DNA of 38,992 bases, taken from a virus. The notes beneath the pieces are model-generated. The model searched no databases. It saw only the letters and a list, made by a program, of their open reading frames with translations, and had not been told where the DNA came from. Position 1 is the stretch's first letter. Each line of letters begins with the position of its first letter. The position numbers and the translations under genes were made by a program. Of the stretch, positions 24,641 through 38,992 are shown piece by piece. The DNA is taken from positions 1-38,992 of the IMG/VR virus record IMGVR_UViG_3300036760_000572; one strand, 5' to 3'.

Positions 24641-25099
24641 TCACCATTCGCCCAGCTCTTCCGCGAGCGCGGTCACCACCGCCCGACGCCAGTCGCGCGT
24701 CGTGCGATCCGCAGCGGCCAGTTCGGCCTCGATTCTATCATGCGGCCAGCGCTCGAAGTAGTACACCTCGACGAGACGACGCCAGCGCTCAGGCAGTCGC
24801 TCGAGCACCGCCTCGATGCCGTTCACGACGGCGCGCAGGCGCAGCAGGTGCGGGTTTGCGGCGAGCGCGCCGGCGCGCTTCGGCGTCGGGTCGCTCCACT
24901 CCGATGATGCGGCCTGATCAGCGCGCTGCGCGTCGTATGCGATGCCCATTCCGCGCTCGGTGATCTCCCGCGTCAGATCGACGAGCCGCGCCTTCGTCGT
25001 GTTGTAGTCGCGCAGTTCCGCTTCGAGGTAACGGAACGTCTCGCCGCGGAGGGCGCCGCGAGGGCGCAGGGGGCGCCGAACGGCGGGCGGTGCATTCAT
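24641..25099 (-). CDS. ArpU/RinA-like late transcription regulator
   Basis: This 152-aa protein starts at ATG 25099, overlapping the TGA that closes the methyltransferase remnant; the open frame upstream of that start belongs to the remnant. The first half is helical with an FRYLEAELRDYNTTKARL segment. The C-terminal part (about residues 88-150: LERLPERWRRLVEVYYFERW, then a second helix pair with TTRDWRRAV) resembles sigma region 4-like helix-turn-helix domains of ArpU/RinA phage regulators. Such proteins activate late genes in Gram-positive phages. It sits immediately upstream of the late promoter. Confidence 0.82.
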   Translation of the reverse strand: MNAPPAVRRPLRPRGALRGETFRYLEAELRDYNTTKARLVDLTREITERGMGIAYDAQRADQAASSEWSDPTPKRAGALAANPHLLRLRAVVNGIEAVLERLPERWRRLVEVYYFERWPHDRIEAELAAADRTTRDWRRAVVTALAEELGEW

Positions 25100-25404
25100 A
25101 GCGCCATCACCGTCTGTTCCATGCGTTTTGCCGCGATCATGGCTGACGGAGCCGGGCCCAGGTCCTTCGCCGCGCGCAGCGTCGTCCCGCTGCCCATGAA
25201 GGGATCCAGGCACCGTCTCGGGCCCGAGAAGGCTCAGCGCCCCCGTGAAGAGCCCCAATGGGTCGGCGGACCCGGCGAACTCAAGCATTGCGTTGGGCCA
25301 GACGGGATCAGTTATCACCGAGCTGCCCCCCCCAAGTCGGGCAGCAGGTCCCGGCAATCGCCATGGTAGATCGTCACCGCATCATCCTCGTAATACGGCT
25401 TCAT
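25096..25404 (-). pseudogene. Decayed DNA methyltransferase (N4/N6 family) with a G8 tract
   Basis: The N-terminus MKPYYEDDAVTIYHGDCRDLLP is a typical beta-class methyltransferase opening and ends at TGA 25315-25317. Just before this stop a run of eight G occurs. In the -1 frame after it the sequence continues with the catalytic-type motif VITDPVWPNAM. Back in the original frame, LDPFMGSGTTLRAAKDLG (the SAM-binding motif) runs to TGA 25096-25098. The protein would need two frame changes, and the region between the two motifs is far shorter than in intact enzymes. This is best read as a remnant with a frameshift and an internal deletion. Confidence 0.75.
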
Positions 25405-25883
25405 CGCAAAGCCCCGCGCGGTGCGGGCCGCAGCGGCGGGTACAGCTGCGGCCGGGCGGAGAACCCGAGCGGCGGCCGCAGCTCCTGCATCGTGTAGGCG
25501 CCGCCGAACCAGCAGTAGATGGCGGCTGCGACGAGCCGCGGGTTGAACGCGCGGCATGAGAACACATCGATCAGCAGGCGGCGGCCGCGGCCGTGGATGC
25601 TGATATGGGACTCCGCGATCAGCTGGTACGCCCACCACTCGTTCGGGTTGGCGCGCTCGTCGACGACGACCGTGGGCGCCGCGATCGCCTTCATGTCGAT
25701 GACGCGCACGATGTCGTCCAGGAACTTGCGCAGCTGCCGTTCGGTCGGGATCTGGCGGTGAGGCTCGGCGGGCCCGAGCTGAACGCCGCCGGGGCGCTCG
25801 CCCAGATCTACCACCCCATCCCACGCCCAATGATGCTTCTGCAACTCGGGCAGCTGGCGCGTTGCGCCGTTCGTCATCGTCAT
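25401..25883 (-). CDS. S-adenosylmethionine decarboxylase family protein (SpeD-like, pyruvoyl enzyme)
   Basis: A 160-aa protein from ATG 25883 (ATGA overlap with the upstream methyltransferase stop). Residues 88-112 contain the SpeD signature LIAESHISIH then DVFSC. The self-cleavage site is Glu91-Ser92, with the processing His97 and catalytic Cys110 all present. After cleavage Ser92 would become the pyruvoyl group. An N-terminal HHWAWDGVVDL strand precedes. The family decarboxylates SAM for spermidine synthesis, and several bacterial and phage homologues have changed substrate to ornithine or arginine. No partner aminopropyltransferase is seen. The C-terminal 25 residues are Pro/Arg-rich. Confidence 0.88.
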   Translation of the reverse strand: MTMTNGATRQLPELQKHHWAWDGVVDLGERPGGVQLGPAEPHRQIPTERQLRKFLDDIVRVIDMKAIAAPTVVVDERANPNEWWAYQLIAESHISIHGRGRRLLIDVFSCRAFNPRLVAAAIYCWFGGAYTMQELRPPLGFSARPQLYPPLRPAPRGALR

Positions 25884-26596
25884 GGTCGGGCTCGGCCGGC
25901 CTTGGCCGGCGCGGCCTGCCACACCACGACCGCGCTCGGGAACGGCGCGCCGGTCGGTACGTAGCGATCGCAGCCGCAGCCGGCGCACACCCCGCCGACG
26001 TGCTCGGTCGCGCAGCTCGGGCGGCCGCCGGGGCAGCGCGCGCATGGGGCGCCGACGAACTTCACGCGATGATCGAGGAATTGACACATCGTCAGAAGCC
26101 GATGAGAGCTATCGACTTCATCAGCGTTGACGTTCACGTCCCAGCGGCGCAAGACATACTGCTGCCACCACTTGGTGTCCGGCCGCACAGGTAGCAGCGC
26201 GAGGGCGTGGCGGCGGACGTGGCCCGCAGCGACCTCACCGACGATGCGCGCCACCCACACCTTCAGCTCGTCGCCGTATGGCGGGTTGACGTATGCGGCG
26301 TCGCAGTCCCACGGCTGGATTAGGCCGTCGAGGGCGTCCGTGCTGCCGTCGAAGAAGCGGCCGCCGGCGCGGTGGATCCGGAACGCGCTGTAGTGGTGCT
26401 CGCGCTGGCCGCATGGGTCGAGGTCGAATGGGCCGTATTTCGCCCACAGCTCGTCGAACAGCGCGGCCGGCGTCTCCCAATCGGCGCGCTGAGCCCGGCG
26501 CATGTAGGCACCGCCGGATCCGGTGGGTGCCGCCGTGGCCATGGCGCCGCCCTCACTAGCAGAGGTGGCGTTGGTAGGCGCGCGCTTCCTAGGCAA
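25880..26596 (-). CDS. Phage DNA N6-adenine methyltransferase (Dam-like) with Cys insert
   Basis: A 238-aa protein. TTG 26596 has AGGAG 8 nt upstream; ATG 26542 is an alternative. Motifs are DWETPAALFDELWAKYGPFDLDPC (phage Dam family opening) and AAYVNPPYGDELKVW (catalytic NPPY). Further on, ALALLPVRPDTKWW is followed by a Cys-rich stretch near residues 186-212 (C..C, C, C..C.C) that looks like an inserted zinc-binding loop. The C-terminus ends with a PSAVVVWQ strand. Such enzymes methylate adenine in viral DNA, giving protection from restriction or marking it for regulation. It overlaps both neighbours. Confidence 0.9.
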   Translation of the reverse strand: MPRKRAPTNATSASEGGAMATAAPTGSGGAYMRRAQRADWETPAALFDELWAKYGPFDLDPCGQREHHYSAFRIHRAGGRFFDGSTDALDGLIQPWDCDAAYVNPPYGDELKVWVARIVGEVAAGHVRRHALALLPVRPDTKWWQQYVLRRWDVNVNADEVDSSHRLLTMCQFLDHRVKFVGAPCARCPGGRPSCATEHVGGVCAGCGCDRYVPTGAPFPSAVVVWQAAPAKAGRARP

Positions 26597-28648: not shown

Positions 28649-30046
28649 CTATGACTCTCTCACCATCACGAACGGGCCGCTGTTCCCGTCCCTCGCGGCG
28701 TCCGCGGCGACGTCGACGCCGAAGGTCCAGGCGACGGCCTGCTGGCAGGTCTGCATCGCCGGTGGCACGCCCAGCACGTACTGGTGGCCGGTGGAGGGGC
28801 AGTCTACGACGACGACGCGCGCTTCGCGGTCCGGCATGTTGGGCATGGGGATGGCGAGTAGGCGCCGTGTGTTGCCCTGGCCATCGACGTCGCGGTGGAT
28901 GATCTTCGCTTCGCTCTCGGCCGCGAAGCGCTCGATGCCGACGCGCTCGAGCATGACGCGCGCGACCTCGGCGTTCGCTTCCTCGATGATCTCCATATGG
29001 GTGATCGACTGCGGCTGCTCGATCACGCGCGGCGGGACGCGGACGCCATGCCAGACGTGCAGCGACCAGCCGTCCGGGTACTGCAACGCGGGGCCGTCTT
29101 CGCGGTGCAGGCGGTTCGCGAACTCGCCTCGATCCGGCAGCGGTTCCAGCGCGAGCGTGCTGGGTCGCTCCGACACCCAACAGATCTTCTCGTGCGGGAA
29201 CGCCCAGCCGGCAGACCGTCCGAGCTCCCAAAGGCCAGCGAGCTTCTCCGTCTGGTGTTTCAGCCCGATGCGAGCGAAGAAGTCGTAGAAGCTGAGCCAT
29301 TCAGCGTCGTGTTGGCCATACACGCTGGCCCGGACGCTGTCCCGGACGCTGGCCCAGACGCTGTCCCGGACGCTGTCCCAGACGCTGTCCCGGACGCTGG
29401 CCCCGACGCTGTCCCGGACGCTGTCCCAAACGCTGTCCCGGACGCTGGCCCCGACGCTGTCCCGGACGCTGGCCCCGACGCTGTCCCAGACGTTGGCCCC
29501 GACGCTGTCCCGGACGCTGTCCCCGACGTTGGCCCGGACGCTGGCCCAGACGTTGGCCCCGACGTTGGCCCAGACGCTGTCCCGGACGCTGGCCCAGACG
29601 CTGTCCCAGACGCTGTCCCAGACGTTGGCCCCGACGCTGTCCCGGACGCTGTCCCGGACGCTGTCCCAGACGTTGGCCCCGACGCCGTTCCAAACGCTGT
29701 CCCGGACGCTGGCCTTCTTCGTGATCAGATCTAGGACGATCGAGCGCGTCAGCGCGAGGCTCATCGGCGAGCCACACCAAACGATCCGCTCGGGCGCCTT
29801 CTTCCCGCCGCATTCGTACATCAGGCGGATCGCCCGCTCGGCGGCGACGCGGTCGGCGGGGCGCGTGTCGAGGCCGGCGGCGATCCACTCATCGCGCACG
29901 ATGGGGATCAGCGCCTGCTGTTTCGCCGTCAGCCGTTGGATCTTGTGCGCGGCCGCGGCGAGTTCGCCGGTGGAGAGCACGCGACCGTCCGGCCCGACCT
30001 GGCCCTGGCCCTGGCTGTAGCCCTTCGCCTTCTTGTTAGTCGGCAA
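28649..30046 (-). CDS. DUF6745-like protein with long tetrapeptide-repeat array
   Basis: A 465-aa protein starting at TTG 30046 inside the preceding gene. Residues 1-110 are helical (EWIAAGLDTRPADRVAAERAI, then IVWCGSPMSLAL). Residues 112-242 are 32 tandem tetrapeptides of form [WRG]-[DA]-[SN]-V plus a partial unit, with one divergent WNGV copy. Residues 243-465 contain WLSFYDFFARIG and LHREDGPALQYPDGW followed by HGVRVPPRVIE, and a helix with EEANAEVARVMLERVG. This tail is the pattern I associate with the DUF6745 family. Function is unknown. The array may form a helical or solenoid spacer, and its length may vary between related phages. Confidence 0.82.
   Translation of the reverse strand: MPTNKKAKGYSQGQGQVGPDGRVLSTGELAAAAHKIQRLTAKQQALIPIVRDEWIAAGLDTRPADRVAAERAIRLMYECGGKKAPERIVWCGSPMSLALTRSIVLDLITKKASVRDSVWNGVGANVWDSVRDSVRDSVGANVWDSVWDSVWASVRDSVWANVGANVWASVRANVGDSVRDSVGANVWDSVGASVRDSVGASVRDSVWDSVRDSVGASVRDSVWDSVRDSVWASVRDSVRASVYGQHDAEWLSFYDFFARIGLKHQTEKLAGLWELGRSAGWAFPHEKICWVSERPSTLALEPLPDRGEFANRLHREDGPALQYPDGWSLHVWHGVRVPPRVIEQPQSITHMEIIEEANAEVARVMLERVGIERFAAESEAKIIHRDVDGQGNTRRLLAIPMPNMPDREARVVVVDCPSTGHQYVLGVPPAMQTCQQAVAWTFGVDVAADAARDGNSGPFVMVRES
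29321..29713 (-). repeat. 12-bp tandem repeat array (32 units)
   Basis: The array is 393 bp: 32 twelve-base units plus nine bases. On the coding strand each unit is NGG GMC ARC GTC, and variation is almost limited to one base in each of the first three codons: T, C or G; A or C; G or A. Units are in frame, so gain or loss of copies would keep the protein readable. All frames on both strands are open here, so other ORFs are artefacts. Confidence 0.95.
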
Positions 30047-30380
30047 CGTTCCGGATCTCCCCGCCGAGCGTATACTCGCGCTGAATCTTCACCTGGTACA
30101 CGCCGGGCTCGAGCACTTGCGGTCCGTGTTCCTCGTGCGTCAGGGTCGCGCCCTTGCCGGCCGCGTCGCCCTCGACCACGATGTAGCGCTGCTCGCCGGC
30201 GTGCCACATCGAGACCTTGTGCGGAGCGAGGATGCGGTGCGCGTGGCCGGTGACTTCGCCGTAGGCGAGAACGAGATCGGGCCGCGGCAGGTCCTGCCGC
30301 TTGGCGTTCATCGGCAACGTCGCGATCGGGAAGATCCCGACGTCGCCCTGGCGGATCATTTTGATTGGCTGCGGCTTCAT
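30036..30380 (-). CDS. Small conserved phage protein next to DUF6745-like gene
   Basis: A 114-aa protein starting at ATG 30380. The first part is IKMIRQGDVGIFPIATLP and the middle contains LAYGEVTGHAHRI. A RYIVVEG strand follows, and then HEEHGPQVLEPGVYQVKIQ with REYTLGGEIRNVAD at the end. The beta-rich arrangement with conserved His residues (GHAH, HEEH) is reminiscent of a small cupin-like fold. Such genes occur beside DUF6745-type genes in other genomes, to my knowledge. The stop lies 11 nt inside the next gene, indicating coupled translation. Confidence 0.78.
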   Translation of the reverse strand: MKPQPIKMIRQGDVGIFPIATLPMNAKRQDLPRPDLVLAYGEVTGHAHRILAPHKVSMWHAGEQRYIVVEGDAAGKGATLTHEEHGPQVLEPGVYQVKIQREYTLGGEIRNVAD

Positions 30381-31426
30381 CGTGTTGCTCCTGCTCCTTC
30401 CAAACTGCGTGAACTCCTAACCGGCATCTCGTCGTGCAAGCGGCCGTCGAGCCATCGCCCGCCACTCTTCGGTGTAGGCCCGCCCCATTGCTTGAAAAAG
30501 AAGGGCACGTCGGCGGCGGTGCATTGATCACGGAGTGAGCGAACCCACTCGTGCGGCATCGGCCGGAAGCCGTTGCCCGATTCACCGCCGACGATCACCC
30601 AATCGAGGAACGGCCCGCCGAGCTTGCGCGCGGCGGCCGCGACCTGAGCGAGAGCGCGCAGCTTTATAGGGTCGATGGTGCCGCAGACCGTGACATTCGC
30701 CGTCAACCACGCCCCGAGATCCACCGGCCCCAGTAGGGGCTCCGCGCTGATGAACCGCACGGCCGCCGGCGTCGCCAGCAGCAGCGGGATCCTCTCATCG
30801 GCGAAGTGCTGATTCTCGACCGACACGCCGAGCCAGACATTGGGCAGCGGCCAATGGGGCAGAAAGGTCTCTTCCTGAATGCCGTGCGACTCATGCCAAG
30901 CGGAGGCTCGATTCAGCGCCGTGGGCGACACCTTACCGAACAAGCTCGTGACCGCGCCGAGCATCCGCCATTGAACGTCCGTTCCTGGCTTCCAGCCCGT
31001 GCCGTCATTGTCAACGTGATAGTTGTTGCCTGGCTTCGGTCGCGTCATATAGGATCGCATTCGCTCCGGGCGCTTTGTCAGCACTTGAAACGTGTGCATC
31101 GGCGCGAGCGCCATCACCGCGAAGACGCGATCGATCAACTCGTCAGGCACGTCGTCGTGGAAGAGATCGCTCAGGCTGTTGACGAAGATGCGGCGGGGCC
31201 GCCTCCACCGCAGCGGTAGATCGAGGCGGTCCAGGTGCAGCTGCAGGCCGCCGCGCGTCGTCGACGCGTTGCCGACGCGAACAAACGGGCGCGGCTGGCC
31301 GGCCGCGCCGCGGAACGGCGGCGTCCTTTCGATGTAACAGTGGGCGCAGCCCGGCGAGACGCGCGTGCAGCCAGTGAGGACGTTCCACGTCGCATCCGTC
31401 CAGCCGATCTCGCTTTTGTCGCTCAT
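30377..31426 (-). CDS. Phage Gp37/Gp68-like protein (DUF5131), radical-SAM-like
   Basis: A 349-aa protein with the family opening IGWTDATWNVLTGCTRVSPG and cysteines C20, C27 and C30 (C-x6-C-x2-C). These sit at the N-terminal end of a likely TIM-barrel, as in radical SAM-like proteins. Further blocks are FVNSLSDLFHDDVPDELI, FQVLTKRPERM, NVWLGVSVENQ, RFISAEPLLG and DWVIVGGESG. The C-terminal block is PFFFKQWGG. Chemistry is not established for the family. The gene overlaps the upstream end of the 114-aa gene by 4 nt. A nucleic acid modification role would suit its neighbourhood. Confidence 0.9.
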   Translation of the reverse strand: MSDKSEIGWTDATWNVLTGCTRVSPGCAHCYIERTPPFRGAAGQPRPFVRVGNASTTRGGLQLHLDRLDLPLRWRRPRRIFVNSLSDLFHDDVPDELIDRVFAVMALAPMHTFQVLTKRPERMRSYMTRPKPGNNYHVDNDGTGWKPGTDVQWRMLGAVTSLFGKVSPTALNRASAWHESHGIQEETFLPHWPLPNVWLGVSVENQHFADERIPLLLATPAAVRFISAEPLLGPVDLGAWLTANVTVCGTIDPIKLRALAQVAAAARKLGGPFLDWVIVGGESGNGFRPMPHEWVRSLRDQCTAADVPFFFKQWGGPTPKSGGRWLDGRLHDEMPVRSSRSLEGAGATR

Positions 31427-38442: not shown

Positions 38443-38951
38443 GGCAGCACCCCGATCAGCCCAGCGTCGAGCTGTAAGATGAGCAGCGCGTCTATCGGGT
38501 TGACCCGCCCGTCGCCACTAGCGTCCGCGTTGCCGATGCAGCTCGGCATCGAGAGCCCCGCGCTGTACTGGATGACAGCGAGCGCGTCCAGCGCGTCGAC
38601 CGTCCCCGTACAGTCCGCGTCGCCGCGTAAGCCGGCAGCGTTGGCGCGGCCCGCCGGCATGAGCGCGCCGGCGGCTGCGAGCGTGAGCGCCAGGCCCAAG
38701 AGCACGATGGCGCCGACGATGGGCGCCGCCGGCGCGAGCGGCGCGAGCGACGGCAGCGACGGCTGGCCCACGATCTTCTGCACCGTCCGCTCGACGAAGT
38801 ACCAGCCGATCGCCGCGACGCCGAGGTTGCGGAACCAATCAGGCACGTCGCGCCCGGTGAAGATAGCGGCGATGAACGCGCCCATGAAGGCCAGCGCGAT
38901 CACCGGCCGCGTCAGCGTCTTCACCACCTCCGTAAACGTCTCAGTCTTCAT
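38439..38951 (-). CDS. Holin-like membrane protein with C-terminal dockerin repeats
   Basis: A 170-aa protein. TM1 is near residues 16-32, a second hydrophobic stretch near 41-53 ends in WYFVERTVQK (holin-like), and a Pro/Ala linker and TM3 (76-97) follow. The C-terminal 63 residues carry two dockerin-type calcium loops, D111-D122 (DADCTGTVDALD) and D143-D154 (DASGDGRVNPID), each followed by the helix pattern ALxxxQ...AGL. Cys114 and Cys138 could pair. With two inner TMs the dockerin part would lie on one side of the membrane only, probably outside. It is the candidate holin, but the dockerin tail is unusual for phages. Confidence 0.78.
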   Translation of the reverse strand: MKTETFTEVVKTLTRPVIALAFMGAFIAAIFTGRDVPDWFRNLGVAAIGWYFVERTVQKIVGQPSLPSLAPLAPAAPIVGAIVLLGLALTLAAAGALMPAGRANAAGLRGDADCTGTVDALDALAVIQYSAGLSMPSCIGNADASGDGRVNPIDALLILQLDAGLIGVLP

Positions 38952-38992
38952 CTTCTTCTTCGTCTCCTCTCTCCATAGTTGGCGCCGGCGGC
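38866..38992. repeat. Direct terminal repeat, right copy
   Basis: This is identical to bases 1-127. It includes the 5' 86 bp of the holin-like gene and the end of the gene before it. On the circular map these bases should be counted once. Confidence 0.95.

Follow-up and report, generated by a model that had tools for sequence, protein, structure and literature searches.

A gene on the minus strand of a tailed phage, here called P0001, encodes a SpeD-like protein with a shortened and altered substrate loop. Judging from its family, tree position and residue losses, we give an even chance to the reading that P0001 is a pyruvoyl-dependent ornithine or arginine decarboxylase that tops up host polyamines. 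Phage SpeD homologues with a switched substrate were already published in 2023, and the short-loop kind of P0001 adds a variant. If active, P0001 would be a minimal form of the SpeD family without the usual substrate loop, in a family whose substrate switches were only recently found. It would also be a natural test of whether Glu62 (Thermotoga numbering) suffices for pyruvoyl formation in a protein without Ser55. An inactive P0001 would count as a phage pseudoenzyme.

Identification of a SpeD-like gene in a phage record

The window analyzed was the whole IMG/VR virus record IMGVR_UViG_3300036760_000572 (38,992 bases). Its first and last 127 bases (1-127 and 38866-38992) are identical and form an exact direct terminal repeat, so that the record is probably a complete circular contig; it was classed among records without end repeats, despite this 127-bp repeat. 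The record codes for a tailed phage and has genes for terminase, portal, protease, capsid and tape measure; most of its genes are on the minus strand. The genes relevant to this analysis are as follows:

24641-25357, minus: RinA-type late regulator ORF (TIGR01636, 4.8e-14, over the cut-off)
25096-25404, minus: decayed N4/N6 methyltransferase, seen in a three-frame translation as fragments in two frames (MKPYYEDDAVTIYHGDCRDLLPDL; TDPVW; LDPFMGSGTTLRAAKDLG..QTVMAL), with the family read from motifs, not from a database match
25401-25883, minus: P0001, SpeD-like (AdoMet_dc fold) short-loop pyruvoyl decarboxylase gene, 160 aa, predicted from PF02675, phrog_3125 and an AlphaFold/Foldseek match
25880-26596, minus: Dam-like N6-adenine methyltransferase (PF05869, 40.9 bits; phrog_111)
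30377-31426, minus: DUF5131 gene, upstream (PF07505, 297 bits; counterpart in phage L180 by tblastn, E 7e-61)

The ORF at 25401-25883, whose strand was absent from the preliminary description, is a real gene. Its GC content by codon position (0.70/0.49/0.89) resembles that of adjacent genes. The protein matched PF02675 with 30.3 bits (5.7e-7; curated cut-off 25), which assigns it to the AdoMet_dc fold family, and phrog_3125 (S-adenosylmethionine decarboxylase) with 33.2 bits (8.9e-8). The score against TIGR03330, the strict AdoMetDC equivalog, was 19.5 bits versus a cut-off of 75.65 bits, below the threshold for a bona fide AdoMetDC.

An AlphaFold model of P0001, based on an alignment that included 58 phage relatives, reached a mean pLDDT of 73.7, with most core blocks >85. 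The best structural match of the model was Thermotoga AdoMetDC (Z 11.9, rmsd 2.4, 110 residues aligned), with Z of 11.8-11.9 against 1vr7, 1tlu and 1tmi, and Foldseek gave an E of 3.4e-4 for the match to Thermotoga AdoMetDC. In this model, P0001 has the SpeD fold that characterizes the AdoMet_dc family. The preliminary description had proposed a SpeD-type pyruvoyl enzyme in a phage without a polyamine pathway or spermidine synthase, and the analysis agreed: no match to PF01564 (spermidine synthase) or PF00491 (agmatinase/arginase) was found in the window, a record that is probably complete. Published phage SpeD genes mostly occur without such partners (PMC9992855), so that a phage lacking its own spermidine synthase is no anomaly.

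Glu91, Ser92, His97 and Cys110 are kept, whereas the Ser55 equivalent and the substrate loop are lost

Alignment with Thermotoga AdoMetDC gave the following assignments:

25632-25634, minus: Trp84, at the position of Thermotoga Ser55 and human Ser229
25608-25613, minus: Glu91-Ser92, predicted self-cleavage site, aligned with Thermotoga E62-S63; Ser92 would turn into the pyruvoyl group
25593-25595, minus: His97, predicted processing residue, aligned with Thermotoga His68
25581-25592, minus: Gly98-Arg101 (GRGR) instead of the substrate loop TWPE, two residues shorter
25554-25556, minus: Cys110, predicted catalytic residue, aligned with Thermotoga Cys83

The pyruvoyl Ser, the His and the Cys that are expected of the AdoMet_dc family are all retained in P0001, and the motif ESH is present as in AdoMetDCs. 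The alignment thus supports the earlier claim that Glu91-Ser92, His97 and Cys110 are kept. The wider claim that all self-cleavage and catalytic residues are kept was too strong, because Trp84 takes the place of Ser55, a position occupied by Ser or Thr in 185 of the 199 aligned homologues. In the loop, Gly100 and Arg101 stand where Thermotoga has Pro71 and Glu72, and the spacing from His to Cys is 13 versus 15 in Thermotoga. P0001 therefore lacks two features of bona fide AdoMetDCs, the second processing residue Ser55 and the Pro of the TWPE loop; the preliminary description had missed the loss of both the loop and the Ser55 equivalent.

In the human enzyme, activation depends on Ser229, which corresponds to Ser55, and the S229A protein cannot be activated, whereas Thermotoga S55A activates nonetheless, possibly with Glu62 as the base (PMC3975893). 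The loss of Ser55 therefore need not stop processing. As for the loop, the ribose hydroxyls of AdoMet are contacted by a glutamate at a strand end (PMC1282579), which in our own reading is Glu72 in Thermotoga, and the loop Pro is reported to be invariant among bona fide AdoMetDCs (PMC10407285). However, the SpeD of phage phiN3 restores spermidine in E. coli and is a working AdoMetDC (PMC9992855), and the equivalents of Pro71 and Glu72 are both absent from it, so that a characterized AdoMetDC breaks the loop-Pro rule and loop loss does not exclude AdoMet as a substrate. The loop change in P0001 is suggestive of a substrate other than AdoMet, not decisive.

Compared with class 1b AdoMetDC/SpeD (Thermotoga maritima TM0655, PDB 1tlu/1vr7; Bacillus subtilis SpeD), P0001 shares the fold, the Glu-Ser cleavage site and the order of His and Cys, but it is only ~20% identical, has lost the Ser55, Pro71 and Glu72 equivalents together with two residues of spacing, and carries an N-terminal insertion of ~15 aa.

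Short-loop homologues and tree position

P0001 as a single query recovered no relative in the phage collection or genome contigs and no new viral-contig locus, and alignments were therefore needed to find its relatives. The search baits were SpeD from B. subtilis and from two phage types. Profile searches yielded 80 phage loci, 80 genome loci and 80 phage loci from a further search, with partial overlap. The alignment held 199 homologues; the alignments included a B. subtilis row and a Thermotoga row, the core of which, without its C-terminal tail, was taken from a PDB alignment.

The short loop, with a His..Cys spacing of 13 residues, was present in 10 of the 199 homologues: eight from phages (P0001, L180, L025, L017, L186, L194, L197 and L227) and two from Bacilli MAGs (L105 and L119). 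This kind of SpeD appears to be undescribed in the open-access literature. In all 10, Ser/Thr is missing at the Ser55 position and Glu directly precedes the pyruvoyl Ser. The processing His is replaced by Ala in two (L197:5881-6165 and L227:5878-6258), so that some members of this set may lack activity; on these residues the L197 and L227 proteins are possible pseudoenzymes. The Bacilli proteins (L105:5614-6342 and L119:5533-6204) are two-domain SpeD fusions, in which the N-terminal domain lacks the cleavage Ser and the C-terminal domain is of the short-loop kind and carries ESHISIH.

Of the 14 homologues with a residue other than Ser/Thr in place of Ser55, 13 kept Glu62; the Fisher P of 0.004 is unreliable, as the association is partly built in by search patterns, several of which contained ESH, and by the relatedness of the sequences. 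Ser, His and Cys likewise owe their conservation among the homologues in part to search patterns and kinship. The association of the short loop with the loss of Ser55 was not built into the search patterns, though these sequences share ancestry.

The closest relative of P0001 is the SpeD-like protein of phage L180 (IMGVR_UViG_3300031965_001337), with 44% identity over 123 aa (E 2e-24). The two proteins have an HGxGR loop and the 13-residue spacing in common, and Ser, Glu, His and Cys are retained in L180 too, whereas the residue in place of Ser55, Trp in P0001, is Arg in L180.

In the tree, P0001 was placed within a 48-row branch (support 99/92) with pelagiphage ADC-like, phage ODC-like and phiN3 proteins, and the Thermotoga, Bacillus and S-PM2 AdoMetDCs fell outside this branch. 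Such a position is that expected of SpeDC/SpeDA, yet the same branch includes phiN3, a working AdoMetDC. The alignment is short with few columns, and branches are long (1.77 for P0001), so that the finer position of P0001 is unsure; a clade of P0001, L025, L105 and L119 was compatible with the data but not established (AU p 0.67).

With SpeDC/SpeDA, including phage ODC and ADC (PMC9992855, PMC10407285), P0001 shares the tree branch, the lone phage gene and the lost AdoMet-loop Pro, and Gln87, five residues before the pyruvoyl Ser, is at the position of a Gln in ODC-like phage proteins. However, P0001 has a shorter loop and apparently lacks most published ODC signature residues. Its Glu, Gly and Leu occupy the positions of Thr, Phe and Tyr in phage ODC-like proteins; of the published SpeDC signature (Gln, Thr, Phe, Tyr), with positions judged via the phage ODC-like proteins, seemingly at most the Gln is present.

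Genomic context of the SpeD-like gene

The start of P0001 overlaps the stop of the Dam-like methyltransferase gene by 4 nt (ATGA), as had been described, and its stop overlaps the following ATG by 4 nt. These overlaps at both ends suggest that P0001 is translationally coupled to the flanking genes. Downstream on the coding strand are the decayed methyltransferase, the RinA-type regulator, whose 5' part overlaps that remnant, HNH and terminase genes; ASCH-like and DUF5131 genes are upstream. The preliminary description had placed P0001 before both a methyltransferase remnant and an ASCH/DUF5131 region, which is right for the remnant and wrong for the ASCH/DUF5131 region. At 28649-30046, the window also encodes a DUF6745 protein whose middle part is a long run of short repeated units (RDSVWDSV, GANVWDSV and similar).

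The gene order DUF5131 - SpeD - HNH - small terminase - large terminase - portal is common to the window and the L180 phage. In the 41.9-kb record of L180, no match to PF05869 (Dam), PF01555 (N6/N4-methyltransferase) or PF01564 (SpeE) was found; the SpeD-like gene is thus kept where no Dam or N6/N4 methyltransferase was detected. The Dam methyltransferase as a query found no relatives. Among 88 neighbours of other phage SpeD genes, no DNA methyltransferase was present in the 25 of 62 neighbour families listed, although one matching a single neighbour could be hidden; in the same listed families, two of the neighbour proteins had small-molecule-type methyltransferase domains. A conserved methyltransferase-SpeD module was considered as a candidate and dropped on account of L180 and of these neighbour families.

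Proposed function of P0001

The preliminary description offered three options: SAM depletion to weaken host restriction, a substrate change to ornithine or arginine, and a supply of polyamines for DNA packaging. The substrate change is now the best supported, as the AdoMet-binding loop is gone and P0001 lies outside the Thermotoga/Bacillus AdoMetDCs, and SAM depletion is weakened by L180 and the neighbour families. We infer that the P0001 proenzyme would cut itself between Glu91 and Ser92. Glu91 would act as the base and His97 in the second step, and the cut would yield a beta chain and an alpha chain that begins with a pyruvoyl group. After decarboxylation of the substrate, Cys110 would protonate the adduct. 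With a short GRGR turn in place of the loop that grips AdoMet, L-ornithine or L-arginine, both small basic amino acids, would be a likelier substrate than AdoMet. The product would then be putrescine or agmatine, which host enzymes would convert to polyamines for phage replication, translation or packaging. This explanation is preferred because of the AdoMetDC fold, the retention of Ser, Glu, His and Cys also in L180, the tree branch, the loss of Pro71 and Glu72, the TIGR03330 score far under the cut-off, and Gln87. In experiments, related phage proteins were inactive as AdoMetDCs and acted as ornithine or arginine decarboxylases (PMC9992855). Counting against the explanation are the published ODC signature, of which P0001 seems to have one residue at most, the AdoMetDC function of phiN3 on the same branch despite its lost Pro71/Glu72, the long branch and unsure place of P0001, and the His loss in two short-loop relatives.

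That P0001 is instead a true AdoMet decarboxylase, with the phage supplying decarboxylated AdoMet from which the host spermidine synthase would make more spermidine, appears quite unlikely. AdoMetDC is the commonest polyamine gene in phages, mostly without SpeE (PMC9992855), and both the retained ESH and the phiN3 enzyme, likewise without Pro71/Glu72, agree with such a function, but the lost and shortened loop, the low TIGR03330 score and the tree position argue against it. A catalytically altered or inactive protein, without normal processing and with a binding or regulatory role or an unknown amino acid substrate, is a somewhat unlikely alternative. The loss of the Ser55 equivalent throughout the short-loop proteins and of His in two, the inability of human S229A to be activated and the lack of a pathway partner in the phage would fit it. 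On the other side, Thermotoga S55A still activates, and the four residues are intact in both P0001 and L180 at a mere 44% identity.

We consider it very improbable that P0001 is a SAM-depleting counter-restriction enzyme working with the adjacent methyltransferase gene. The 4-nt overlap with the Dam-like gene would suit this role, and phage SAM-degrading anti-restriction enzymes exist, but they are SAM lyases, not SpeD (PMC7877911). Depletion would also starve the phage's own methyltransferase of SAM, the AdoMet-binding loop is lost, and neither the syntenic L180 record nor the families listed for genes next to other phage SpeDs provided a matching DNA methyltransferase. A broader proposal, somewhat unlikely in our estimate, is that the short-loop homologues (P0001, L180, L186, L025, L017, L194 and the Bacilli fusions) form a distinct class of pyruvoyl enzyme. 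Their processing would proceed free of Ser55/Ser229 via the Glu before the pyruvoyl Ser, and the substrate would be other than AdoMet, ornithine or arginine, or would be one of the last two in a new pocket.

Other phage SpeD loci

Two further gene arrangements were observed among the phage loci. A DUF3326 (PF11805) gene directly follows a phage SpeD-like gene of the TSN..HTLD type in seven of nine such loci (L004, L005, L006, L007, L008, L009 and L045), and in most of these the DUF3326 start meets or overlaps the SpeD stop. The TSN..HTLD-type SpeD and DUF3326 may be an undescribed two-gene enzyme pair. Microcystis phage MaAM05 (L178, MW495066.1) has a gene cluster with two SpeD genes, SpeE and agmatinase, in which speH_1 may be an arginine decarboxylase.
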